A stretch of 64,000 nucleotides of DNA from an uncultured Gammaproteobacteria bacterium (GTDB lineage Bacteria; Pseudomonadota; Gammaproteobacteria; Arenicellales; Poriferihabitantaceae): positions 1-64,000 of the forward strand of contig CALKKV010000012.1 of the NCBI GenBank assembly GCA_937992195.1, written 5' to 3'. The notes beneath the pieces were generated by a model, which ran no database searches, was not told where the DNA came from, and saw nothing but the letters and a program-made list of their open reading frames with translations. The translations under genes and the position numbers were made by a program. Positions 8,779 through 64,000 of this stretch are shown piece by piece. Positions within the stretch are counted from its first letter, which is position 1, and the number at the start of each line of letters is the position of its first letter.

Positions 8779-9354
8779 ATGAATCTTCCCCACGACGCTA
8801 CCAATCCAGAGAAATTTGTCGCTGACTTATGTGCATGGATCGAACAGGAGGGTGTTTCCTATTACGACGAAACCGTCACCCAGCTGGATCACGCTTTGCA
8901 ATCTGCCTGCCTGGCAAAACAGGAATCTGTTGGGAGTCACCAGGTTGTCGCTGCACTACTCCACGATATAGGGCATTTAATCATCGATGAACATAGCCGC
9001 CGAGAGGACTTTCTATCCCATGATGCGTTTCATGAAAAAGCAGGATGTCTTTGGGCAAATCGTTTTTTTGGCGATCAAATCTCAGAGCCTATACGTTTAC
9101 ACGTCCCTGCAAAACGCTGGCTTTGCACTTCAGATAGCGATTACTACGAAGGTCTCTCTGACTCGTCCAAACATAGTTTTCGTCTTCAGGGGGGTATGAT
9201 GTCCTCTAAGGAAGTGGCCGCATTTGAAGCCGAACCGTTTAGCAAGGAAGCAGTGAAGTTACGGCTGTGGGATGACCGGGCGAAGGTGACAAATAAAACG
9301 GTACCAGCGATTTCCGCATATCATTCAGATTTGCTTTCTTCTTTAATCCGCTAA
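8779..9354 (+). CDS. phnZ: PhnZ-like HD-domain mixed-valent diiron oxygenase
   Basis: The 191-residue HD-domain protein matches PhnZ across its length. The segment YYDETVTQLDHALQ (residues 28-41) aligns with the PhnZ segment that carries the gating Tyr and the Glu contacting the substrate amine (here Tyr28 and Glu31). His38 and the His62-Asp63 pair (AALLHDIGH) are expected iron ligands. HVPAKRWL, YYEGLSDSSK and LRLWDDRAK are also shared. PhnZ oxidatively splits 2-amino-1-hydroxyethylphosphonate into glycine and phosphate. The retained Glu favours an aminoethyl substrate over trimethyl analogues, but this needs testing. It ends 60 bases before the convergent phnE1 gene. Confidence 0.85.
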   Translation: MNLPHDATNPEKFVADLCAWIEQEGVSYYDETVTQLDHALQSACLAKQESVGSHQVVAALLHDIGHLIIDEHSRREDFLSHDAFHEKAGCLWANRFFGDQISEPIRLHVPAKRWLCTSDSDYYEGLSDSSKHSFRLQGGMMSSKEVAAFEAEPFSKEAVKLRLWDDRAKVTNKTVPAISAYHSDLLSSLIR

Positions 9355-9414
9355 GGCAACTGCAAGACGCTGTTCAATACGCGCGCTGGGTAAGCTGGAC
9401 CGCTGAATAAGGAA

Positions 9415-10740
9415 TCAGAGCAACCTGCGCCTTAACCGCCCTGAAACTACATCCATCATAATCACGACTATCAGCGTGAGAATAATTAAATAGAGCGTGT
9501 TTTCCCAGTCCTTTGAAGTTTGAATAGTTTGCACAAGCATTAATCCGATACCGCCCGCGCCGAGAGCACCGATCACCGTCGCTGAACGCGTGTTTGATTC
9601 CAGGTAATACAATGTTTGAGAAATGAAGACTGGCATAATTTGCGGTAACACACCAAAAGCGTAGTTCTGCGCGCTGCTCGCTCCGGTTGATTTCACTCCC
9701 TCTAATTGATGTTCATCGATGTTCTCTATAGCTTCTGAATAGAGCTTCCCGAGTTCTCCTACCATAGTAAATATGATGGCCATAATCCCAGTTAAAGGGC
9801 CGAGACCAAAAGCACGAATAAATATGAGTGACCAAATTAAAGTATCGATTCCTCGCAAAAAATCAAAGCACCGGCGAATCAACATTCTCGAAGCAAAGTT
9901 GCGGTTGAAATTTTCTGAAGCAAGAAAAGCAAGCGGTAGAGCAATCACCGATGCAACAACTGTACCCAACAACGCCATAATCACTGTTTCCAGCAACGCT
10001 CTAAATACATCCTTGTGCTGCCACTCCTTGTTATACCAAATGCCACGCCAGATAGATTGCCAGTTCGACAGATCCGGAATGACGCGCTCAGATGAAAATG
10101 CCGTTGAAACGACTTCGTGAAACGATTTCCCATTCAACGGATGATTAAAATCAAAGAAAAAATTCTCCCAGCCCGCGAAGTAGCGATGCACCTCAACTTT
10201 AGTTTTCGTCACCTGTATCCGCTTGAACAATGAAGGCCGTGCTTCAAACTTGCGCGGCGAGTACTTTGCCCATGCGGGAAGATCTCCGCGCAATAGTACG
10301 CCTTCCTCTGTGGCTTCCACAGTGAGCACCGGGTTGTCAGGAACAGAAAATTGAACCACGTTGCCCTTAACGGTTGCGGTAACGCCCTCACCCATATCGA
10401 CATCAAAACCTTGATCATTCACCTGCACCCATTCCGGATAGGAGCCTTCAAACTCCTGTCCTCTGGTACCCTCAAGACTCACCTCTACTTTGCCGGTTTT
10501 AAACCGTTTTACAATATGGTATTTGTGTGCGAAGGAATCAGTGGCCAATATCACCCCACGGTCTACTCGCAGGTTATCAATCAGCTTCGGTACTTCAAAC
10601 AAATAGGTTGCATACGCGATGTACGCGATCGCGGCAATGATCAGCGCTATGGGCAAAACCGACTGTCGACGGGAATGTCGGAAAACGTCGGCATAGCGCT
10701 CGCAAACGGCTGCATTATCAGCCATCGTAGTCGTAGTCAT
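9415..10740 (-). CDS. phnE: phosphonate ABC transporter permease PhnE, long form (phnE1)
   Basis: The 441-residue protein has one N-terminal membrane helix (about residues 28-50), a beta-rich periplasmic region (about 55-200), and then a standard BPD-type permease domain with about five helices and the EAA-type loop (GVKSTGASSAQNYAFGVLPQ). Ordinary PhnE proteins are 260-290 residues, but a 430-440 residue form with this inserted domain occurs with a second short PhnE in other proteobacteria. Its start overlaps the end of phnE2 by 4 bases (ATGA), so translation is probably coupled. It is the last gene of the phnCDEE operon and converges on phnZ. Confidence 0.9.
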   Translation of the reverse strand: MTTTTMADNAAVCERYADVFRHSRRQSVLPIALIIAAIAYIAYATYLFEVPKLIDNLRVDRGVILATDSFAHKYHIVKRFKTGKVEVSLEGTRGQEFEGSYPEWVQVNDQGFDVDMGEGVTATVKGNVVQFSVPDNPVLTVEATEEGVLLRGDLPAWAKYSPRKFEARPSLFKRIQVTKTKVEVHRYFAGWENFFFDFNHPLNGKSFHEVVSTAFSSERVIPDLSNWQSIWRGIWYNKEWQHKDVFRALLETVIMALLGTVVASVIALPLAFLASENFNRNFASRMLIRRCFDFLRGIDTLIWSLIFIRAFGLGPLTGIMAIIFTMVGELGKLYSEAIENIDEHQLEGVKSTGASSAQNYAFGVLPQIMPVFISQTLYYLESNTRSATVIGALGAGGIGLMLVQTIQTSKDWENTLYLIILTLIVVIMMDVVSGRLRRRLL

Positions 10741-30579: not shown

Positions 30580-31824
30580 TCAAAGACAATTCACCACCAC
30601 ATTTCCATTGGCTGCTTTAATCGGGAAACAAATTTCGTTCTCTGGCACGCTGCCTAGGTCAAGCCTACCATTTGATCTCAGGCGTGCTAAATGAGGCTTA
30701 TTTACGTTACCTATATTAGCGAAAAAACCTCCTATCAAAACCTTGCCATCTAATTGCGATAACAAAGAAGAAATGCTGTCATCCGGCCCAGCTCCCAGAT
30801 CGAAAGTGACATCGACCGAGCTATCAGTATTGAGGCGCGCAATCCGATTTCTGGTATTACCACGCACCACCGTAAATAGTCCACCAATCACTATCTTACC
30901 GTTGGGCTGCAACGCCATTTTAGTGATCGTTGAATTCGCACCTGAGCCAGTTGAGAATCCGGTATCAAGCTCACCATTCGCGATTATACGCGCAATGCGA
31001 TTCCGCACTAAAAAGCCAGTTTGAGTAAACTCTCCACTTATTAGAATCCGGCCATCGTTCTGTACGGTCACGTCATGAACCGGCGCATTAGCGCGGGCTA
31101 TTACACCTACTCCACTGTCCAAACTTCCGTCGGTGTTCAAGCGAGCGAAGTATCCACGTGCTGATTGATTCACCGTTGTAAACTCTCCGCCAATCACTAT
31201 TTTTCCATCACTCTGCAAAGTGACCGCTCTTACGCGCGCATTCGCTCCTTGACCTGGATCAAAGTCTTGATCAACCGAGCTGTCGGTATTCAAACGTGCT
31301 ATGCGATTAAGAGGATTAGCGCGAACCATGTCAAAATCACCGCCAGCAACTATTTTTCCATCGGTCTGAACGGCTAAAGCAAGGACCGTGTCATTAAAAC
31401 CACTACCACCCGCGAAACTTGAATCAACTGAACCATTAGTGTTCAAGCGCGCAATTCTGACTCGCTGAATGTTGTTAAACTCTTCGAATTCTCCTCCAAT
31501 CAGAATTTTGCCATCTGCTTGCAATGCAATTGCAAAGATTGTTCCGTTTGCGCCTGATCCTATTTCAAAACTGTCATCCAGGCTGCCATCCAAGTTCAAG
31601 CGAACAAGCCTATTTCGAAGCGCAACGCTATCAGCGCCAAAGGTTACACCTGTGAAAGCACCCGCTAACAGCAACTTACCGTCGGTCTGTTGAGCCATTG
31701 CAAACACACGGCTGTTGGTTGTGGTGTCAAAAGCCCAGGTCTTGGTCGGACCGATCAGCAATACAACACATAAACCGATTGTCGCAAATAACATTAACGA
31801 TATTCGAATCCGCTGATTGCTCAT
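30580..31824 (-). CDS. secreted seven-repeat delta-60 (DUF5122) beta-propeller protein
   Basis: The 414-residue protein has an N-terminal signal peptide (about residues 1-32, ending KTWAF). It is followed by seven copies of a repeat of about 50 residues with the pattern ALQxDGKILIGGEF and then RIARLNTDGSVD. Seven copies fit a seven-bladed beta-propeller. Delta-60 proteins are exported and of unknown function, and often carry long repeat numbers. Here the C-terminal 25 residues (PENEICFPIKAANGNVVVNCL) hold two Cys that may form a disulfide. No sorting signal is visible, so it may be periplasmic or released. Confidence 0.85.
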   Translation of the reverse strand: MSNQRIRISLMLFATIGLCVVLLIGPTKTWAFDTTTNSRVFAMAQQTDGKLLLAGAFTGVTFGADSVALRNRLVRLNLDGSLDDSFEIGSGANGTIFAIALQADGKILIGGEFEEFNNIQRVRIARLNTNGSVDSSFAGGSGFNDTVLALAVQTDGKIVAGGDFDMVRANPLNRIARLNTDSSVDQDFDPGQGANARVRAVTLQSDGKIVIGGEFTTVNQSARGYFARLNTDGSLDSGVGVIARANAPVHDVTVQNDGRILISGEFTQTGFLVRNRIARIIANGELDTGFSTGSGANSTITKMALQPNGKIVIGGLFTVVRGNTRNRIARLNTDSSVDVTFDLGAGPDDSISSLLSQLDGKVLIGGFFANIGNVNKPHLARLRSNGRLDLGSVPENEICFPIKAANGNVVVNCL

Positions 31825-34959: not shown

Positions 34960-36222
34960 TCAATCTTCAAGGTCTTCAGATAGCTCAAGTAGTGGTACTT
35001 TTCCAATCGCCTCACCAGCAATACCTTGAATAGAGCCATACATCGACGTTGTACTCGAAATGACTTTGTTTATTTGCTTTTCTCGCTTTGTCCAGATTTT
35101 CTGCATCGCCCTTTTTTCTGAGGCTAAATCTGACTCCATTTGCGTGAAGCCTTCTACAATCGTTTCTACTTGCTGACGAAATTCTCCGCCGGTGAGAAAG
35201 TCGTATAACATTCCCATTTTGTCGCCTTTGTTTTCCTGCGCAATCAATGTGTCACTGATCCGAATTGCGGCTTCACGTAGTACCAGAGACAAGCCGCGGA
35301 ACTCTTCGAAAGTACATATCCAAATCCCCTCTCGAATTCCCATTTGCGGCATATCTGTTGGCATTGATTGCGTTACCAGCACACCAACATCTGCGTTTCT
35401 TTCGCGAATATCTTGCTTAAACTTTTCTATCCATCCAGGCGAAAATGCTTTTGTGCGTTTGCTTTCATAATAAATTGTTCCGCAGTTTTGGCGCGTGCGG
35501 GTGTGGATGGTTTGTAGACAATCAGCGCCGCTGGCACCTTTTTTGATTTCTTCAATCGTATCTAACGGAAACTGTGTGGCGAGCCACTGCTCTATCACTA
35601 CCTCCAACACCTCGCCCTGCAATTGTACAGAGCCTTGTTCGGCTTTTCGCTGCGCGTCTTTGAGCTGTTGATTAAGATCTGAAATCACCTTGTTTCTTTC
35701 CGCCAGATCCAGCATGCTTTTTTCTTCAACGGTTTTACGAATCTTCTCTTTCTCGGCATTCAGCGCCTGGTTGAGCTTTTGCTGGTTTTCTACCTCCATG
35801 GCATCACGCATTTCCTCTTTCTCGCGCTTTAGTTTTTCTATTTCTGATTTCGCGCGGTGAAATTCTTTGAGTTGTGATGATTTTGCGCTGAGCTCTTTAT
35901 TCATCGCCGCAAGCTGCTCGGCCTGCTCTTCTTCCAGCTTCTGCTTTATCGACCCGGTTAACGCTTGCTCTCGCTGCTTTATTCCTTCTGCAATCGCTTT
36001 TTGTGTTTGCGCTTCTTGTGCCTCCATTGAAGAAGCTAAAGACTGTTTTTGCTGTTCGATCTCTTCAAGCTGCCGTTTGATCTTTTTTTCTTCACTGACC
36101 CGTTGGGCAGCAAACTGTTTTTTTAGCTCGCCCTCAAGTTGATGGTGCAGTGCATCGTGAACATCAATCCCGTGGCCACACGAAGGGCATTTAATTTGAT
36201 TGCCAGAACCTGATTCAGCCAT
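34960..36222 (-). CDS. DUF2130 domain protein
   Basis: The 420-residue protein starts with a CxxC pair (Cys12 and Cys15, KCPSCGHGIDVHDA) that may be half of a small zinc site. A long coiled coil rich in Glu, Gln and Lys follows (about residues 28-205). The C-terminal DUF2130 domain (about 210-400) contains YYESKRTKAFSPGWIEKFKQ, a segment like the core of PD-(D/E)xK nucleases. The function is not established. The gene starts 2 bases after the adenine deaminase gene ends, so the two are almost certainly one operon. Confidence 0.85.
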   Translation of the reverse strand: MAESGSGNQIKCPSCGHGIDVHDALHHQLEGELKKQFAAQRVSEEKKIKRQLEEIEQQKQSLASSMEAQEAQTQKAIAEGIKQREQALTGSIKQKLEEEQAEQLAAMNKELSAKSSQLKEFHRAKSEIEKLKREKEEMRDAMEVENQQKLNQALNAEKEKIRKTVEEKSMLDLAERNKVISDLNQQLKDAQRKAEQGSVQLQGEVLEVVIEQWLATQFPLDTIEEIKKGASGADCLQTIHTRTRQNCGTIYYESKRTKAFSPGWIEKFKQDIRERNADVGVLVTQSMPTDMPQMGIREGIWICTFEEFRGLSLVLREAAIRISDTLIAQENKGDKMGMLYDFLTGGEFRQQVETIVEGFTQMESDLASEKRAMQKIWTKREKQINKVISSTTSMYGSIQGIAGEAIGKVPLLELSEDLED

Positions 36223-55448: not shown

Positions 55449-56279
55449 CTATAATTTGTTTCTGGGAACCAGCGTCACCTGGCTTTGACATCCCCCTAGC
55501 CACCACGCCATCTCCGTAAAGGTACTCAAGGAAGAGCCGATCAGATGATCTGTTTTAGACAAGATATTGAGGTTAATGAATGCCACTTGCGATAGATCAT
55601 AGCGATCTGGTGGCGAATAATACCGAACTCGATTTCCAAACCGATCAACCAGCTTTTGCAAATACGATGCGTTGTCGGCAGAAACAAACACTTGCCCGTG
55701 TTCTTCCACAAGAGCCTCGTAATACGCAAAATTAAAGTAGTGGCGATGGCGATTCGGTGCATCATCCCAGTCATCGGTCATCCATGTGCGCATATGCACC
55801 GATACGTTTATATCTGAAAGAAGCCGATCGGATGCCTCATTGATCTCATTCAAAAGATCAGAAGCAACGGGTAATTGCGCAATCACCCGCTGATAAATTT
55901 CCTGCATGGTAGAAGGAATTCGATGAAATTCGTGATCAATATTGCGTGCATTCTCATCGGCATCACTAAATCCTTGAGATTCTCGCGCATTCGAAAACCC
56001 GGCTTCAATCGGGTCATCATCAAATACAATCAGGCGCCAGTCTTTATGTGTATTTGCTTCAGATGGAATCGCCGATTTCGAAATGTGTGTGAAATCGGGA
56101 TAAATTTTCACAAGGTCCGGGCTGCTATTAAAAGCTTCACCGCCATGCCTGTCCGCCAGTCGTATCGTCGACAGCAGACATTTCAGGTTATTGCATAATC
56201 CGCCACGCTGTAAAGCCACCCACATATCACACGGGTTCGCGCTTTTAACCTGTGTCACCGCGACCAATCGCCTGGGCAT
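55449..56279 (-). CDS. fucosyltransferase-like glycosyltransferase (putative)
   Basis: The 276-residue protein shows features of GT-B fucosyltransferase-like enzymes: VALQRGGLCNNLKCLLS at the start (like the GLGNRLR-type loop), SVHMRTWMTDD in the middle, and SSLSTFTEMAWWLGGC near the C-terminus. A nucleotide-sugar site is likely but not proven. The ATG lies inside the end of the upstream gene, a 35-base overlap. The pair with the methyltransferase-like gene suggests glycan modification. Confidence 0.6.
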   Translation of the reverse strand: MPRRLVAVTQVKSANPCDMWVALQRGGLCNNLKCLLSTIRLADRHGGEAFNSSPDLVKIYPDFTHISKSAIPSEANTHKDWRLIVFDDDPIEAGFSNARESQGFSDADENARNIDHEFHRIPSTMQEIYQRVIAQLPVASDLLNEINEASDRLLSDINVSVHMRTWMTDDWDDAPNRHRHYFNFAYYEALVEEHGQVFVSADNASYLQKLVDRFGNRVRYYSPPDRYDLSQVAFINLNILSKTDHLIGSSLSTFTEMAWWLGGCQSQVTLVPRNKL

Positions 56280-56865
56280 GCTTGCGCGCCCAAATTCTCA
56301 AACAGTTCTTTATAGATGCTTGCTGGGGCGCCATAAAAATAGTGTCGTGAAATATTTCCACAAAGTAATGCGGCAGGTGCTCACCAAGTGATAATGCAAT
56401 ATCAAACACATTCGGCCATTGATCTGCATCAAATGGCATTGGTGGCGCAGCGAGGAATAATCTGGCGTCATCAATCATAATGACGTCATTTCTTCGATGC
56501 TTTATCGCATCTAACTCTTCGATAATCGGGCATTCATCCAGTTCACCAGCGGTTACTCCTCCAGACCAATGACCGTCAAGCCAAAACATCGCAGGTTGAT
56601 CACCAATTTTTTCCACCACCCGCGGGAGATGCTCTCTTGAATCACCAAAGTGCGGTTCAATATTTCCCAGGGCTTTTAGCTCAGCATGATAACGATCGTA
56701 AAAAGGTTGCGCTGCTTCTATGGTATGAACAAAGTCAAATTCTTCGGCGGCCCAACGGGTCGTTTTACCTTTATAAGTACCGGTTTCAACAAATACTTTA
56801 GCGCCGATTAGCGTTGCCAATTCCAGCGTTGCCTCGCGGTGAGGCCCCATTGTGTAAATTCCCAT
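56245..56865 (-). CDS. class I methyltransferase-like protein
   Basis: The 206-residue protein has a Rossmann-type start with FVETGTYKGKTTRWAAEEF (about residues 30-48), an acidic residue in VHTIEAAQPFYDRY, FWLDGHWSGG and VIMIDDARLF. This fits the FkbM/Methyltransf_24-like group, with the conserved DGHWSGG metal or substrate loop. It overlaps the next gene by 35 bases, and the two are probably translated together. The substrate is unknown, but a sugar O-methylation is plausible in this neighbourhood. Confidence 0.68.
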   Translation of the reverse strand: MGIYTMGPHREATLELATLIGAKVFVETGTYKGKTTRWAAEEFDFVHTIEAAQPFYDRYHAELKALGNIEPHFGDSREHLPRVVEKIGDQPAMFWLDGHWSGGVTAGELDECPIIEELDAIKHRRNDVIMIDDARLFLAAPPMPFDADQWPNVFDIALSLGEHLPHYFVEIFHDTIFMAPQQASIKNCLRIWARKHAQAIGRGDTG

Positions 56866-57044
56866 AAGTACTTTTCTTAAAGCTTATATAAAGCGCTGAA
56901 CACTATCGTTACAGCAAAGTTTTTCGAGCAGATGAAGCTCTCAGCGAACCCATCACATTGTAGTACAATCCTTCTGCTTCAACCATCCAAGAAAAGCAAC
57001 CCGTGATCCATCATTTTCCAAAAAGGTTTTGCACGAGAAATTAA

Positions 57045-57836
57045 ATGACAAGCCAGGACAAATCTATCCCCGCGAGGATGAATACCAGCATAACCGATAA
57101 TCAGGTATACCCTCAGGTTTGTTTGCAAGCCGCTTATGATTATCGTTATTTTCTTAACTTCCGCAGAGAAAAAGACTATGTCGGTGCCTTAGAGCATGTG
57201 CCAGAACGAATAGGACGAATATGTTATGACATGATCAAGGATGACGCGTCGGTTGCGGTGTTAATGGACCAGTTTCGCCAGAACGATTTATATGGAAACC
57301 CAATCACTTTCAACCACGAAGATCTGGGAGATGTTTCTGCAACCACGCTTCGCTACGTCCGCATACTGATTGCCTTGAAACATTTTTTTGGCAGCCTGGA
57401 CGGTATGAATATTTGTGAAATCGGTGTGGGTTATGGTGGACAATGCCGGGTCGCCAACGTCATGTGGGAACCCAGACGGTACCGATTGGTAGATATTCAG
57501 CCCGCCTTGGCACTAGCACAACGGTTTCTCGACCATTTTATATTGCCCTCGGTAATGAGCTACCAAACAATGAACCAGCTTAACTATGAGAATTATGACC
57601 TGGTCATCAGTAACTATGCTTTCACCGAATTACCTCGAACGATACAAGACGTCTATCTTAAGAAAGTCATTTTACGTGCCAAGAAAGGCTATATTTTATA
57701 CAACGAAATTACACCCGCTTCGTTTCGTTCGTACAAAGCTGCGGAATTGAAAGAAATGATCGATGGAGCTGAAATCTCTGAAGAGTATCCGCTAACCCAT
57801 AAGCGCAACTGCGTTATCACCTGGGGGCATCAGTAA
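57045..57836 (+). CDS. putative sugar O-methyltransferase
   Basis: The 263-residue protein matches the bacterial putative sugar O-methyltransferase family. A typical N-terminal segment (NFRREKDYVGALEHVP) is followed by NPITFNHEDLGDVSATTLRYV, motif I NICEIGVGYGGQCRV, RYRLVDIQPALALAQRFL and YDLVISNYAFTELPRTIQDVY. The last part gives a Pro- and Tyr-rich loop. It stands alone on the plus strand between minus-strand glycan genes. The acceptor is unknown. Confidence 0.72.
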   Translation: MTSQDKSIPARMNTSITDNQVYPQVCLQAAYDYRYFLNFRREKDYVGALEHVPERIGRICYDMIKDDASVAVLMDQFRQNDLYGNPITFNHEDLGDVSATTLRYVRILIALKHFFGSLDGMNICEIGVGYGGQCRVANVMWEPRRYRLVDIQPALALAQRFLDHFILPSVMSYQTMNQLNYENYDLVISNYAFTELPRTIQDVYLKKVILRAKKGYILYNEITPASFRSYKAAELKEMIDGAEISEEYPLTHKRNCVITWGHQ

Positions 57837-57879
57837 ATCACAATATAAAAGCATCCCGAAAAGAAACAACGCGGGCGAC

Positions 57880-58695
57880 TTATAGATCTTCATGCGGCAT
57901 AGACACCGGGTGAAAAATTCGAGGCCCGTCCTCTTCAGCAAGTGCGGTTTGAATTGACTGCTTCGACACTTCTTGCAGCAAAGGAGCTAACACCTTCTTC
58001 TCCGCTCGCCAGTTTTTCATTTCAGGATCACCAGGCCACCAAGGTAGAAAATTATGTTGCTGACAAAATGTAAGACCAAACGCTTTAGCGAGACTCGGAA
58101 TTTTGTATTCAAGGAATCCGACTCTGGGATGATTAATCTCAACGTACTTATCAAGAAAAATCCGCGGAAAGCAAACAACGATAAATAAACAAGCCATCAA
58201 ATCCGGCTCTTCCATGCCGTATTGTTTTTGCATCAGTTGCTTGAACGCCAGAAAATTAGGATTGTCGGGTCGAGTCCAGTTCCACCAGTCTCCCATATTC
58301 GCAACCGGCCTCAAGCCTGAAAGCAATATTTCACCAGGCTGCAGTGACGAAAATAATGAAGCTTGCGGAGCGGTGACCAACATATCCCACTGACAGACAA
58401 AAATGCTCTGCCACTTCAAATATTGCCCGCGATCTTTATGCCATTCTGCAATTAATTGATCACCGTGCTTCCATTTCCACTTCGCTTCTCTATCATGCGG
58501 ATAGACGTAAAAATCATCGAGCAAGTCTGCAGTCTTCTTCGCGGCTTCAAAGGAAAGAGAAGCCGGTCCTCCATACAGTCCATAGATATTTATATCGGGA
58601 TTTAATCGACGAAGTCGAATCAGCCGAACTCGACACAAATCAAATTCCTTGTAAAACCAAAACAAAATATCTGGCTGCATACTAATGTTGTTCAT
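57880..58695 (-). CDS. glycosyltransferase-like protein of unknown function
   Basis: The 271-residue protein has no family I can name. It starts with MQPDILFWFYKEFDLCRVRL and holds NPDINIYGLYGGPAS, SIFVCQWDMLVTAP and GFLEYKIPSLAKAFGL. The pattern of a Rossmann-like first half with a WDML acidic segment recalls nucleotide-sugar transferases that act near the membrane. It is Trp-rich. The context is one of sugar-modifying genes. The call is tentative. Confidence 0.5.
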   Translation of the reverse strand: MNNISMQPDILFWFYKEFDLCRVRLIRLRRLNPDINIYGLYGGPASLSFEAAKKTADLLDDFYVYPHDREAKWKWKHGDQLIAEWHKDRGQYLKWQSIFVCQWDMLVTAPQASLFSSLQPGEILLSGLRPVANMGDWWNWTRPDNPNFLAFKQLMQKQYGMEEPDLMACLFIVVCFPRIFLDKYVEINHPRVGFLEYKIPSLAKAFGLTFCQQHNFLPWWPGDPEMKNWRAEKKVLAPLLQEVSKQSIQTALAEEDGPRIFHPVSMPHEDL

Positions 58696-58841: not shown

Positions 58842-59942
58842 ATGAGCAAATCCCAGGCTGACAATATCACGATGTCCGAAGGCGGACTGTATTCACTCGC
58901 AACCATAGGCGCAAAGGATGTGATTGATCTCGCCGCCGATCGCGCTTGCGATGCCATCCAGCAGCTTGATCTCTCCCAAAATGCTAACCGCTTTACGATG
59001 GCGGACATGGGATGTGCTGATGGCGGTACTTCCCTAGGGCTGGTGGATAGAATTTTATCTGAGCTCAATGATACGAACCCCGACATAACATCTTCCATTA
59101 TTTATGCCGATCAGCCCGCAAATGATTTCAACGCACTGGTCAGTATTGTCCACGGACGAAGTTCATTTGATACCTGGATGAATAGGCATAAAAACGCCTT
59201 TCCCTTGTTTTCAGGCGCTTCGTTCTACACCCAGGCTGCTCCTGAGAACTCACTCGACTTTGTTTTTTCCGCCACCGCAATGCACTGGCTGTCACAAAAG
59301 CCCTGCAATCTTTCTAATCATGTCCATATGGTGGGCGCAACAGGAGACGAGTACGCGCAGTTTTCTGAACAAGCGAGGAATGACTGGGAAACAATATTGC
59401 TACATCGCTCGCGTGAGTTAAGAGCTGGCGGCAAGGCAGTATTTGCCAACTTTTGTCGCGATGAAAATGGACGTTATTTGGGTAACACCGAGGGTATCAA
59501 TATGTTTGATACCTTTAACGAAATATGGCTCGAATTTCTAAGTGAAGGGGCAATTAGCGAAAGCGAATATCACAGCATGACCTTGCCGCAGTATTACAAC
59601 ACCGTAGAACAATTTAGCGCCCCATTCGATAACCCGGAAAGCCCCGTCTATCAAGCAGGCATGCGCCTGGATAGCATTGAAACAGGTATTGTGCGTTGTC
59701 CATTTGCGCGAAAATTCGAACAAGACGGCGATGTCAAAAAATTTGCGGACGGCTTGATCCCCACCGTCCGCAGCTGGAATCAAAGCATCTTTGCCGCCGG
59801 ACTGGACCCACAGCGTAATCAAGACGACCGGCGGACTCTAATTGAAGATTACTATGGCCGCTATCATCAACGCGTGCTGGACGCACCAGCTGGACATGGA
59901 ATGGACTATGTACACGCCTACATGACAATCTCTCAATCCTAA
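58842..59942 (+). CDS. SABATH-type SAM-dependent carboxyl methyltransferase
   Basis: The 366-residue protein has the SABATH (Methyltransf_7) layout: SEGGLYSLATIGAKDVIDLA at the N-terminus, motif I MADMGCADGGTSLGLVDRIL, IIYADQPANDFNALVSIV with the acidic residue and the Gln-Pro-Asn-Asp-Phe block, and the diagnostic FVFSATAMHWLSQKP. The cap domain shows VFANFCRDENGRYLGNTEG and LPQYYNTVEQF. Plant members methylate carboxylates such as salicylate, jasmonate or indole acetate, and bacterial members are much less studied. The substrate here is unknown. It stands alone between a minus-strand glycan gene and the TRAP genes. Confidence 0.85.
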   Translation: MSKSQADNITMSEGGLYSLATIGAKDVIDLAADRACDAIQQLDLSQNANRFTMADMGCADGGTSLGLVDRILSELNDTNPDITSSIIYADQPANDFNALVSIVHGRSSFDTWMNRHKNAFPLFSGASFYTQAAPENSLDFVFSATAMHWLSQKPCNLSNHVHMVGATGDEYAQFSEQARNDWETILLHRSRELRAGGKAVFANFCRDENGRYLGNTEGINMFDTFNEIWLEFLSEGAISESEYHSMTLPQYYNTVEQFSAPFDNPESPVYQAGMRLDSIETGIVRCPFARKFEQDGDVKKFADGLIPTVRSWNQSIFAAGLDPQRNQDDRRTLIEDYYGRYHQRVLDAPAGHGMDYVHAYMTISQS

Positions 59943-60151: not shown

Positions 60152-61243
60152 ATGAAACGTCGTGACCTATTAAAAGGTGGCGTAGCTACGGCTGCAGCTG
60201 CTGGTGCATCGACTCTCGCCGCTCCGGCGATCGCCCAAGAAAGAATTGAAATCGCAATGGTTGCGACCTGGCCGCGTGACTTCCCGGGCCTGGGAACAGG
60301 TGCGCAGCGCTTCGCGCAAAGATTGACAGACATCAGTGACGGCCGTTTTCAGGTTGAATACTTCGCAGCCGGCGAACGTGTAGGCGCATTTGATTCATTC
60401 GATGAGGTTGCTTCAGGTAATGCTCAGATGTATCACGCCGCTGACTATTATTGGAAAGGCAAGCACCCAGGTTGGGCATACTTCACCGCGGTTCCATTTG
60501 GACTGACTTATACTGAAATGAATGCTTGGATTCGTTTTGCCGGTGGACAAGAACTCTGGGACGAATTAGCAGCCGAGTCAGGCCTTAAGAACATGATGTG
60601 CGGCAGTACAGGTGTGCAAATGGGAGGTTGGTTCCGCAAGGAAATGAACTCTGCGGATGACTTCAAAGGCTTAAAGATGCGTATCCCAGGTTTAGGGGGT
60701 GACGTATTAGCAAAGCTTGGTGCTTCTCCTGTTTCATTACCTGGTGGCCAAATTTACGAAAACCTGATTTCTGGCGCGATTGACGCAACCGAGTGGGTTG
60801 GCCCTTGGAATGATGCGGCCATGAAGTTCTACGAAGCCGCCAAATACTACTACTTCCCTGGCATGCATGAGCCAGGCGCAATGTTAGCTGCTGGGGTCAA
60901 CAAAGACTTCTGGGAAGGTCTTTCAAAGTCTGACCAAATCATGATTGAAGCCGCTTCTTCCATGGAAAATGATGTCATGATGGCGGAATACAATGCGAAG
61001 AATGGTTCAGCATTAGCCAAGTTAATCGCCGAGCAAGGCGTTGAGCTACGTGAGTTCAACGACGATATCTATGATTCATTTGGTGAGGCTGCCGACGAGG
61101 TCTTCGCCGAAACTGTAGAGCATAGTGATCTGGCAAGACGCATTCACGAGAGCTTTATCAAAGCGCGTGCGGACATTGGTGGCTGGCAGAAAGTGGCTGA
61201 CGCTTCTTATCTGCGCCAACGAAACCGCGTAATCGGCCTGTAA
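60152..61243 (+). CDS. dctP: TRAP transporter substrate-binding protein
   Basis: The 363-residue protein has a twin-arginine signal peptide (KRRDLLKGG at residues 2-10, cleavage after APAIAQ near residue 29), so it is folded before export. The mature part is a DctP-type binding protein: MVATWPRDFPGLGTGAQRF, GLKMRIPGLGGDVLAKLGASP with the Arg that grips a carboxylate, and GAIDATEWVGPWND. It binds an organic acid in the periplasm and passes it to the permeases below. The Arg supports a carboxylate ligand, but which one is not known. Confidence 0.9.
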   Translation: MKRRDLLKGGVATAAAAGASTLAAPAIAQERIEIAMVATWPRDFPGLGTGAQRFAQRLTDISDGRFQVEYFAAGERVGAFDSFDEVASGNAQMYHAADYYWKGKHPGWAYFTAVPFGLTYTEMNAWIRFAGGQELWDELAAESGLKNMMCGSTGVQMGGWFRKEMNSADDFKGLKMRIPGLGGDVLAKLGASPVSLPGGQIYENLISGAIDATEWVGPWNDAAMKFYEAAKYYYFPGMHEPGAMLAAGVNKDFWEGLSKSDQIMIEAASSMENDVMMAEYNAKNGSALAKLIAEQGVELREFNDDIYDSFGEAADEVFAETVEHSDLARRIHESFIKARADIGGWQKVADASYLRQRNRVIGL

Positions 61244-61522: not shown

Positions 61523-62542
61523 GTGATTCGTCTTCTCGAAAAAATAGCCACTTACCCTCGATTATTAAGGGTCCTTGCCGCGGTCGCCTCAACTATGCTG
61601 GCCATATTCTTAATCGACAATATTTTGATTTATGCCGCTGATTGGCCCGGGCTGCGCAAGTTATTTGCCGATATTGGACTTGCCTCTGCCGGTAAAAATT
61701 TCAAGGGTCTTGAAGGTGCTGCCGTCGCCCAGGCATGGGGACAGCTTATCGTCAGCTGCGCTGTTATAGGGGCTGTCGTTTTTTGGGTACTTCGCAGTCA
61801 TACCAGGGCTCTATCTTCTGATGCCAATATGTATTCAAGCATCTCGGCATTCGTTATTCGCGCTGCGTTTTGGGCTGTTTTGTTAATCGGCGCTGCAGAT
61901 ATGTTGATTTCATTTTTGCGAGTAGAGGGACTCTTAAGTGCGGTGGTTGGTGAACACCTAACCACTCAACTAGGCCGCTCTATTTTTCGCGGTGTTTATG
62001 TTCACTACCCCCTAATGGTCGTTGGCATCATCATTGCCTGCTTTTCGCGATCTCTCGGGTTTGTCTGGCTTTCACTAATGATCGTTGGTGCCGAATTCTT
62101 AATTGTTATCACCCGATTTGTCTTTTCTTACGAGCAAGCTTTTATGGGTGATCTCGTGCGCTTTTGGTATGCCGCACTATTTTTATTTGCCAGCGCTTAT
62201 ACATTGCTGCACGACGGCCACGTCCGCGTGGATGTATTATATGCGGGCTTCAGCGAGCGCGGAAAAGCGGTCACCAATAGTCTCGGCGCGGTGTTACTCG
62301 GCCTCCCCATTTGCTGGACGATTCTTATCCTGGGCACATCAAGTAAAGGCAGCGTCATCAACAGCCCGCTTCTTAGTTTTGAAATTTCGCAAAGTGGATT
62401 CGGGATGTACACCAAATATCTGATGGCAGCTTACCTACTCATCTTTGCCGTCAGCATGGCAATTCAATTTGTCAGTTTTTTCCTCGGCAACATGGCAAAG
62501 TTTGTTTCGCCTGTTGAATCGACCGGCAACGGAGGAGCATAA
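61523..62542 (+). CDS. dctQ: TRAP transporter small permease, long form
   Basis: The 339-residue protein starts at a GTG at 61523. It has about eight hydrophobic helices. The C-terminal half (about residues 170-330) is the DctQ four-helix part, with VITRFVFSYEQAFMGDLVRFWYA and HDGHVRVDVLYAGFSERGK. The first half carries additional helices and is longer than usual for DctQ (150-200 residues). Such long forms occur with the 600-residue DctM type, which has extra loops. The job is to support DctM. It ends 2 bases before dctM begins. Confidence 0.82.
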   Translation: MIRLLEKIATYPRLLRVLAAVASTMLAIFLIDNILIYAADWPGLRKLFADIGLASAGKNFKGLEGAAVAQAWGQLIVSCAVIGAVVFWVLRSHTRALSSDANMYSSISAFVIRAAFWAVLLIGAADMLISFLRVEGLLSAVVGEHLTTQLGRSIFRGVYVHYPLMVVGIIIACFSRSLGFVWLSLMIVGAEFLIVITRFVFSYEQAFMGDLVRFWYAALFLFASAYTLLHDGHVRVDVLYAGFSERGKAVTNSLGAVLLGLPICWTILILGTSSKGSVINSPLLSFEISQSGFGMYTKYLMAAYLLIFAVSMAIQFVSFFLGNMAKFVSPVESTGNGGA

Positions 62543-62544
62543 CC

Positions 62545-64000
62545 ATGGAAATAGTCTTTCTATGTACCTTGGTCGGCCTGATGATTATTGCCCTAACTTC
62601 AGGGTTTCCAGTTGCCTTTGCACTACCAGGGTCTGCGATTGCAACGATCTCTCTAGCGGCACTATGCGGCTATCTCTTCGCCGGTGATGTTGATGCTTAC
62701 TTCGCCCAGGATGGGCCGACCGAATGGCTTACTGCAGGTATTACTAACTTTCGAAGTTTATATTGGGAAGTTGAACGCGACACATTAATAGCTATCCCCC
62801 TTTTCGTTTTCATGGGGATTATGCTGGAAAGATCTCGCATTGCGGAAGATCTGCTGGTTTCCATGGCACGTTTGTTTGGCCCTGTCCCAGGTGGATTAGG
62901 CATCTCGGTGGTATTTGTTGGTGCACTGCTTGCTGCGACCACGGGTATTTTAGGTGCCACGGTCATTGCCATGGGCTTGATTTCCCTGCCCGCGATGTTG
63001 CGCAATAACTATTCAAAACCGCTAGCAACAGGAACAATTTGCGCCTCGGGGACACTCGGCCAAATTATTCCGCCGTCCATTGTTCTGATCATCCTGGCCG
63101 ATCAACTTGCCAATGCTGCCGATCAGGCGAGCACCCTTCGCAAAGCAAACTACAAAGAGATAACCGGTGAGTTTTCTTTACCATCCGAGCTGGATATAAC
63201 CTCCGCCAGTGCCGGAGACATGTTTATGGGTGCGCTGATCCCGGGCTTGATTCTGGTTGGCTTGTACATGCTGTACATACTGATCGTGGCAATTGTTAAA
63301 CCCGGCACTGCACCACCGGTGCCCTATGAAGGTAAGTACGACCGAAAATTTGCCATCTCCGTAGCGCTTTCTTTAGTGCCTCCACTCAGTCTTATCTTCG
63401 TTGTTCTCGGTTCGATTATTCTAGGTATCGCCACCGTGAACCAAGCAGGCGCGATAGGCGCTGTCGGAGCCATCATTATGGGCGGCTACCGACTAACCGA
63501 AGGCAAACGCCTACAGTATCTACCAACCATCTTGGCGGTCGGTTCTATCGCCGTGATTCTGATACTGCTGCAAAACTTCAACCTGAATATTAAAAACATC
63601 CATAGCGGTCACGATCAGCTCGGGATAGTTCTGGCGCTTATTGCCGTTTCGGTGTTTGTATTTGCTCTGGTGTGGAGCTGCTGGCGCACATACAAAATAG
63701 AAAACACGTTAAGCAGTGTAATGGTAGACACCGCTAAAACCACTTCCATGGTTTTCATCATTTTAATCGGCGCTGCGATGCTGACTTCTGCATTTCGCGC
63801 GTTTGGCGGTGAAGAGCTGGTTAAAGAATTTTTGACCGGATTACCTGGCGGGTTTTGGACACAGTTTCTTGTCGTCATGATCGTCATATTCCTGCTGGGA
63901 TTCTTCCTCGATTTTATTGAAATCGCGGTTGTGGTTGTGCCCATTGTCGCGCCAATACTTTTGTCTGATCCGTCGGCCAATATCACGGCGGTATGGCTTG
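62545..64000 (+). CDS. dctM: TRAP transporter large permease, partial at right edge
   Basis: The gene starts at the ATG at 62545 with GGAGGAG upstream and is open at the right edge, giving 485 codons. Motifs of DctM are ERDTLIAIPLFVFMGIMLERS, GALLAATTGILGATVIAMGL and GTLGQIIPPSIVLIILADQL. A polar insert of about 45 residues follows (LRKANYKEITGEFSLPSELD), as in the long DctM subgroup. The end of the fragment has GGFWTQFLVVMIVIFLLGFFLDFIEIA. It is the transport subunit, moving the solute with sodium, in the inner membrane. Confidence 0.92.
   Translation, partial: MEIVFLCTLVGLMIIALTSGFPVAFALPGSAIATISLAALCGYLFAGDVDAYFAQDGPTEWLTAGITNFRSLYWEVERDTLIAIPLFVFMGIMLERSRIAEDLLVSMARLFGPVPGGLGISVVFVGALLAATTGILGATVIAMGLISLPAMLRNNYSKPLATGTICASGTLGQIIPPSIVLIILADQLANAADQASTLRKANYKEITGEFSLPSELDITSASAGDMFMGALIPGLILVGLYMLYILIVAIVKPGTAPPVPYEGKYDRKFAISVALSLVPPLSLIFVVLGSIILGIATVNQAGAIGAVGAIIMGGYRLTEGKRLQYLPTILAVGSIAVILILLQNFNLNIKNIHSGHDQLGIVLALIAVSVFVFALVWSCWRTYKIENTLSSVMVDTAKTTSMVFIILIGAAMLTSAFRAFGGEELVKEFLTGLPGGFWTQFLVVMIVIFLLGFFLDFIEIAVVVVPIVAPILLSDPSANITAVWL

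Follow-up and report, generated by a model that had tools for sequence, protein, structure and literature searches.

A bacterial branch of SABATH-fold methyltransferases that lacks the carboxylate-holding glutamine and recurs beside TakP-type TRAP transporters

The 64,000-nucleotide stretch of DNA analyzed here (the window) encodes a SABATH-fold, SAM-dependent methyltransferase of a distinct bacterial branch, in which the glutamine that holds the substrate carboxylate in carboxyl methyltransferases is replaced by alanine and which is recurrently encoded beside a TRAP transporter. We propose, with a probability of roughly one in two, that the protein is a small-molecule methyltransferase, most likely acting on a small polar acid tied to the cargo of this TakP-type transporter. 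Plants owe scent, hormone inactivation, and caffeine to SABATH enzymes. A branch that lacks the presumed acid-gripping residue yet travels with one kind of importer narrows the candidate substrates to a limited set and provides a natural test of how the SABATH fold switches acceptor.

A SABATH-fold methyltransferase encoded in the window

The methyltransferase gene (58842-59942, + strand) is an intact open reading frame of 366 codons and is present in a single copy in its genome. It contains all four motifs quoted in the original prediction, which had described a bacterial SABATH carboxyl methyltransferase. PF03492 (SABATH) is the sole Pfam family detected in the 366-amino-acid product; the match covers residues 38-261 (E = 4e-37) and reaches 128.6 bits, passing the Pfam gathering score of 29.8. 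A search of NCBIfam returned no specific name for the protein, only BioC at 0.023. Relative to three homologues, the fraction of differing sites is 0.26-0.30, 0.16-0.22, and 0.59-0.63 at the first, second, and third codon positions, respectively, a pattern of protein-coding constraint that we used in place of dN/dS, as dS was saturated.

The best sequence match in the Protein Data Bank is the fatty acid O-methyltransferase (FAMT) of Mycobacterium marinum (5f2k, E = 4e-21), followed by plant SABATH enzymes, and a profile built from 58 relatives improves the PDB match to E = 8e-43. An AlphaFold2 model generated from these relatives has a mean pLDDT of 89.9, and its residues 9-366 align to 5f2k over 343 residues, including the helical cap, with a Z score of 36.9. 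Each of the 13 PDB entries for SABATH enzymes scores between 29.3 and 36.9 against the model over 311-343 residues, while the next family reaches 19.9. With PF03492 the sole Pfam family and all 13 SABATH structures ranking ahead of every other fold family, we regard membership in the SABATH fold, as judged from sequence and the predicted structure, as settled.

A separate bacterial branch

A carefully built, unrooted tree of 25 proteins contains three groupings: the plant enzymes, the bacterial proteins of FAMT type (three), and the window's branch, represented by 19 members. Support for the branch is 98/98, and it lies apart from both the plant enzymes and those bacterial SABATH proteins that retain the glutamine discussed below (Gln-type). 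The phylogenetic placement called for by the original prediction thus puts the protein within the SABATH family, in agreement with Pfam and fold, and does so in a bacterial branch of its own. Among further residues invariant in the branch, C286 and H358 are absent from the Gln-type bacterial proteins, whereas H352 is found in one of those proteins. Together these three branch-typical residues were considered as a candidate metal site. The protein shares with FAMT a full-length fold, sequence similarity, a bacterial host, the SAM site, and the clamp tryptophan. It differs in its separate branch, in showing only 24% identity over the model, and at two active-site positions, where Gln31 and Gln154 of FAMT correspond to Ala24 and His148, respectively. 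A bacterial SABATH enzyme is already known, and the branch is a new variant thereof. A search of the open-access literature found no study of this branch.

The family had been described as known mainly from plants, which understates its bacterial side: a bacterial member has been crystallized (5f2k), and a pattern scan that took one genome from each species matched 342 stretches encoding the branch. The best 80 of these 342, which we kept for analysis, come mostly from metagenome-assembled genomes and are labeled Gammaproteobacteria, Granulosicoccaceae, Chromatiales, SAR324, Alphaproteobacteria, and Acidimicrobiales. The SABATH gene is found in 25 of 60 genomes at the order level, its own included. 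PF03492 matches above the cut-off occur in five of 369 genomes in the class sample and four of 398 in the phylum sample, each count again including the window's own genome.

Mobile origins were considered and rejected. Thirteen pattern matches were found among viral contigs and none was confirmed as a relative, arguing against a viral origin; spread by plasmids was discarded given that matches came from only three of 72,556 plasmid records, a single one lying within the branch (Rhizobium sp. CB3171, 39.7%). That branch member is carried on the conjugative plasmid pCB3171_3 (L138:7968-10363) and is followed by a gene of the FAD amino-acid-oxidase type. Elsewhere, decayed-looking SABATH copies, with an internal stop or as short remnants, lie beside TRAP genes (L009 in genome G013 and L158 in genome G042), and for this reason the gene may be undergoing loss in some lineages.

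Active-site residues and the acceptor atom

In the plant carboxyl methyltransferases, the substrate carboxylate is positioned by K10, Q25, and W151 of SAMT and by Q38, H162, and W163 of LAMT, according to a report that also assigns SAM-site roles to the Asp of the DxG motif, the Asp of the DxxxND motif, and the Phe of the SF motif (PMC13376665). The SAM site is intact in the window's protein: D55, D90, N94-D95, and F128 are invariant across the 58 sequences of our alignment (A2). The carboxylate clamp is not. The column occupied by glutamine in SAMT (Q25), LAMT (Q38), IAMT (Q36), and FAMT (Q31) holds Ala24 (codon 58911-58913, + strand), as it does in all 58 A2 sequences and in four of four further branch members (62/62). 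Glutamine occupies this column in all seven comparators: three are plant enzymes, and the other four are bacterial proteins (one of them fragmentary) from outside the branch. The SEGGLYS motif named in the original prediction does belong to the N-terminal motif region; the glutamine that is diagnostic there, however, is this alanine.

The substrate-contacting His-Trp pair of the family is retained as His148-Trp149 (codons 59283-59288, + strand); the histidine is present in 58/58 A2 sequences, and at the second position 49 sequences have Trp and nine have Tyr. Studies of plant SABATH enzymes describe a role for this pair (PMC11709435, PMC13376665) and report that it touches the substrate in caffeine-forming N-methyltransferases as well (PMC11709435). 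Plant SAMT (1m6e), IAMT (3b5i), and LAMT (6c8r) resemble the window's protein in fold and SAM motif, and LAMT and IAMT also in the His-Trp pair, but have the clamp glutamine and belong to a separate branch.

A closer match to this combination is provided by the tea N-methyltransferases CkTcS (6lyh) and CkTbS (6lyi), which share the fold, retain the His-Trp pair, and lack the clamp glutamine. Read from the alignment, the pattern of a kept His-Trp and a lost Gln therefore resembles N-methylating rather than esterifying enzymes. The tea enzymes differ in having Thr in place of Ala, in their purine substrates, and in a fold score below that of FAMT. A possible but doubtful alternative is that the protein is an N-methyltransferase, or a hydroxyl O-methyltransferase, whose substrate is a small acid containing nitrogen, a functional counterpart of the plant xanthine N-methyltransferases. 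Amino-acid-type neighbors in several lineages (gamma-glutamyltranspeptidase, amidase, aminotransferases, and a FAD amino-acid oxidase type) would fit such a role, but no single one of them recurs across lineages as the TRAP genes do, and the acceptor atom cannot be named from sequence alone.

We consider it unlikely that the protein is an ordinary FAMT-like carboxyl methyltransferase that makes fatty or aromatic methyl esters, for detoxification or as volatiles, beside an incidental TRAP neighbor. FAMT is the nearest solved structure, and both His148 and Trp149 remain, but the clamp glutamine of FAMT and the Gln-type bacterial proteins is alanine in all 62 branch members compared, the branch is separate from these proteins, and the TRAP linkage recurs.

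The replacement of Gln by Ala is in itself no proof of a different acceptor; rather, it takes away the ground for assuming a carboxyl one. Of the name carboxyl methyltransferase, then, the SABATH fold and the His-Trp pair stand, while the carboxyl acceptor is not secured because its holding residue is alanine throughout the branch. We file the protein in the SABATH fold family and not as a SABATH carboxyl methyltransferase.

A neighboring TakP-type TRAP transporter

Downstream of the methyltransferase gene, after a gap of 209 bp between its stop and the next start, lie the three genes of a TRAP transporter, all on the + strand and at the positions previously noted. The first encodes a TakP-type solute-binding protein, DctP, with a TAT-like signal (60152-61243; PF03480, 3e-52). 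It is followed by the 339-amino-acid small permease DctQ (61523-62542; PF04290, 1e-9), whose homologues adjoining other copies measure 331-351 amino acids, and by the large permease DctM (PF06808), which begins at 62545 and runs past the window end at 64000; in the contig it extends to 65205 (62545-65205, 887 amino acids).

DctP matches TakP of Rhodobacter sphaeroides (2hzk, 2hzl) with E = 3e-73 for 2hzk. According to the structural report, TakP holds pyruvate through R177 and Y100 together with a cation on Q156, E214, W215, and E240 (PMC1839085). All six of these residues are identical in the window's DctP and carry the same numbering, in line with the earlier description of a carboxylate-type binding protein. 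This likeness, drawn from sequence, covers DctP only; DctM here is the 887-residue protein. The transported substrate would accordingly be a 2-oxo acid or a similar cation-chelating acid of two to five carbons.

Sulfoacetate is also conceivable as a cargo of this transporter type, because the same TRAP adjoins sauS-type genes at two loci. There (L048:10509-19438 and L051), the TakP-type TRAP is followed by sauS, an AMP-forming acyl-CoA ligase, and a phosphotransacylase; sauS, encoding an acylating sulfoacetaldehyde dehydrogenase, scores 736 bits in L048 against a cut-off of 600. The arrangement suggests sulfoacetate as the cargo at these loci and hence a possible TRAP route for this compound. 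A study of sponge symbionts, by contrast, links the sulfoacetate clusters described there to TTT, another type of transporter (PMC12625764). As a clue to cargo, sauS was judged not decisive: it exceeds the cut-off in 43 of 60 relatives and occurs elsewhere in the window's own genome. Gamma-glutamyltranspeptidase family genes lie beside the same TRAP at two loci where the transporter is not linked to a SABATH gene (L150:12280-14007 and L151:5874-7487).

Recurrent linkage of the methyltransferase and TRAP genes

We mapped gene neighborhoods onto a quick tree of 92 rows, 85 of them labeled: 33 linked, with this kind of TRAP no more than 6.5 kb away, 23 without TRAP nearby, and 29 with flanks too short to decide. 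Labels were set by hand for seven loci (none for L016, L017, L020, and L022; divergent for L018 and L021; downstream for L006), and copies with stops or shorter than 300 amino acids (e.g., L062, L090, and L120) were excluded. L102, L104, and L107 were scored as linked despite no DctP match there, whereas DctM matches at 32% (L094 and L127) were not scored as linkage, and L047, near which another sort of TRAP lies, was scored as unlinked. Linkage thus holds in 33 of the 56 judgeable rows. Counted by locus, a DctM match lies within 8 kb of the SABATH gene in 33 of 82, two of these being weak matches to other TRAPs.

Gene order varies among the linked rows: DctPQM lies just upstream on the same strand in 16, downstream in 15, and divergently in two. 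The upstream cases belong to SAR324 and to Gammaproteobacteria, Granulosicoccaceae among them. The methyltransferase begins 15-115 bp past dctM in all 16, with a gap of 35 bp in SAR324, a spacing such as a single operon would show; the order is reversed in the window. In nine of the 15 downstream cases, about 1.9-2.6 kb intervene, mostly two genes. At least eight changes between linked and unlinked states are required on the tree, or ten when gene order is counted. Linked loci lie in different contexts, beside lpxB, pntAB, or pyrBC genes, and a Rhodospirillaceae copy (L129) adjoins a diverged TRAP, which shares with that of the window 55% identity in DctP and 46% in DctM. From the several gene orders, the occurrence in both SAR324 and proteobacterial hosts, and the diverged TRAP in L129, we conclude that the linkage is recurrent and not one inherited block. 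The TRAP neighbor is hence more than a chance observation, and it looks like a true partner of the methyltransferase.

The transporter is not bound to the enzyme: the TRAP is commonly present without the methyltransferase. Orthologous DctP (at least 66% identity) occurs in 21 of 35 relatives with no SABATH match, one as a fragment, and a genome of the same genus (L139) retains the exonuclease, YdbH-like, TRAP order without the enzyme. Among the 16 genomes that have both, the window's own included, the two are adjacent in ten, not adjacent in five, and at contig ends in one. This frequency of TRAP without enzyme, and the constant TRAP position in the window's family with or without it (L139, L140, and L141), would suit the improbable account in which the linkage reflects inherited synteny or joint transfer of neighbors with no shared function; the several orders and contexts (upstream, downstream, and divergent; lpxB, pntAB, or pyrBC) and the diverged TRAP in L129 argue against it.

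Proposed function

In the favored reading, a SAM-dependent methyltransferase acting on a small polar acid, the enzyme would bind SAM at the usual SABATH site and accept its substrate beneath the helical cap, close to His148 and Trp149, as the alignment suggests. Given the linkage, the acceptor may be an acid imported by the transporter or metabolized together with its substrate, so that either the TRAP cargo or its product would receive the methyl group. With Ala in place of the canonical Gln but His148 and Trp149 retained, that group could go to a carboxylate bound by other means or to a different atom (N or a hydroxyl O), options that appear about equally likely from the residues. Neighboring genes that fit the metabolism of 2-oxo, 2-amino, or 2-hydroxy acids (aminotransferases, Ldh_2-type dehydrogenases, and a D-amino acid dehydrogenase-type oxidase) support a role in acid metabolism. 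To our knowledge, the acceptors of SABATH enzymes in solved structures are larger molecules, which weighs against a small acid. If the TRAP link is functional, it would indicate that uncultured bacteria, most of them marine, include a methylation step when they process small organic acids.

More speculatively, the branch as a whole, across Proteobacteria, SAR324, and Acidimicrobiales, might have given up the carboxylate clamp and methylate a small acid (2-oxo, amino, or sulfo) at a different atom, with a dedicated TRAP importer supplying that acid. We hold this only tentatively; if true, marine bacteria would couple import to methylation by a route so far undescribed.

Other neighboring genes

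In Alphaproteobacteria and Acidimicrobiales, the SABATH gene is found mostly in other, non-TRAP contexts. A 2OG-Fe(II) oxygenase gene lies directly upstream in five of 82 loci (L115, L118, L119, L121, and L128) at gaps of 10-148 bp. It is a second recurrent partner across phyla, found in Acidimicrobiales (with a 10-bp gap in three) and Alphaproteobacteria; its coordinates are 9026-9991 in each of L115, L118, and L119 and 8915-9955 in L121. Gamma-glutamyltranspeptidase is encoded nearby in five of 82 loci, one a weak case (L098), and adjoins the SABATH gene in L125, L132, and L134. An ETHE1/glyoxalase II-like hydrolase occurs in 15 of 82, comprising 14 lpxB-linked gammaproteobacterial loci, where it may reflect plain synteny, and one weak match at 29% (L072). 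Amidase genes are found near the SABATH gene in three of 82 loci, and L131 and L133 have Ldh_2-type dehydrogenase genes nearby. We rejected a conserved pathway extending past the TRAP, as oxygenase, gamma-glutamyltranspeptidase, hydrolase, and amidase each fail to span the branch across the 82 loci.

In the window itself, four genes of glycan or methyltransferase type (55449-58695) lie between a 5'-3' exonuclease gene and the SABATH gene, outside the conserved unit. They encode a NanM-type sugar methyltransferase, another methyltransferase-like protein, and two products of glycan type or unknown function. These genes occupy the site held by YdbH-like and DUF1318 genes in other members of the family, and thus represent a local replacement. 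Farther away, the window also encodes a DUF5122 beta-propeller protein (30580-31824) and a DUF2130 protein (34960-36222).
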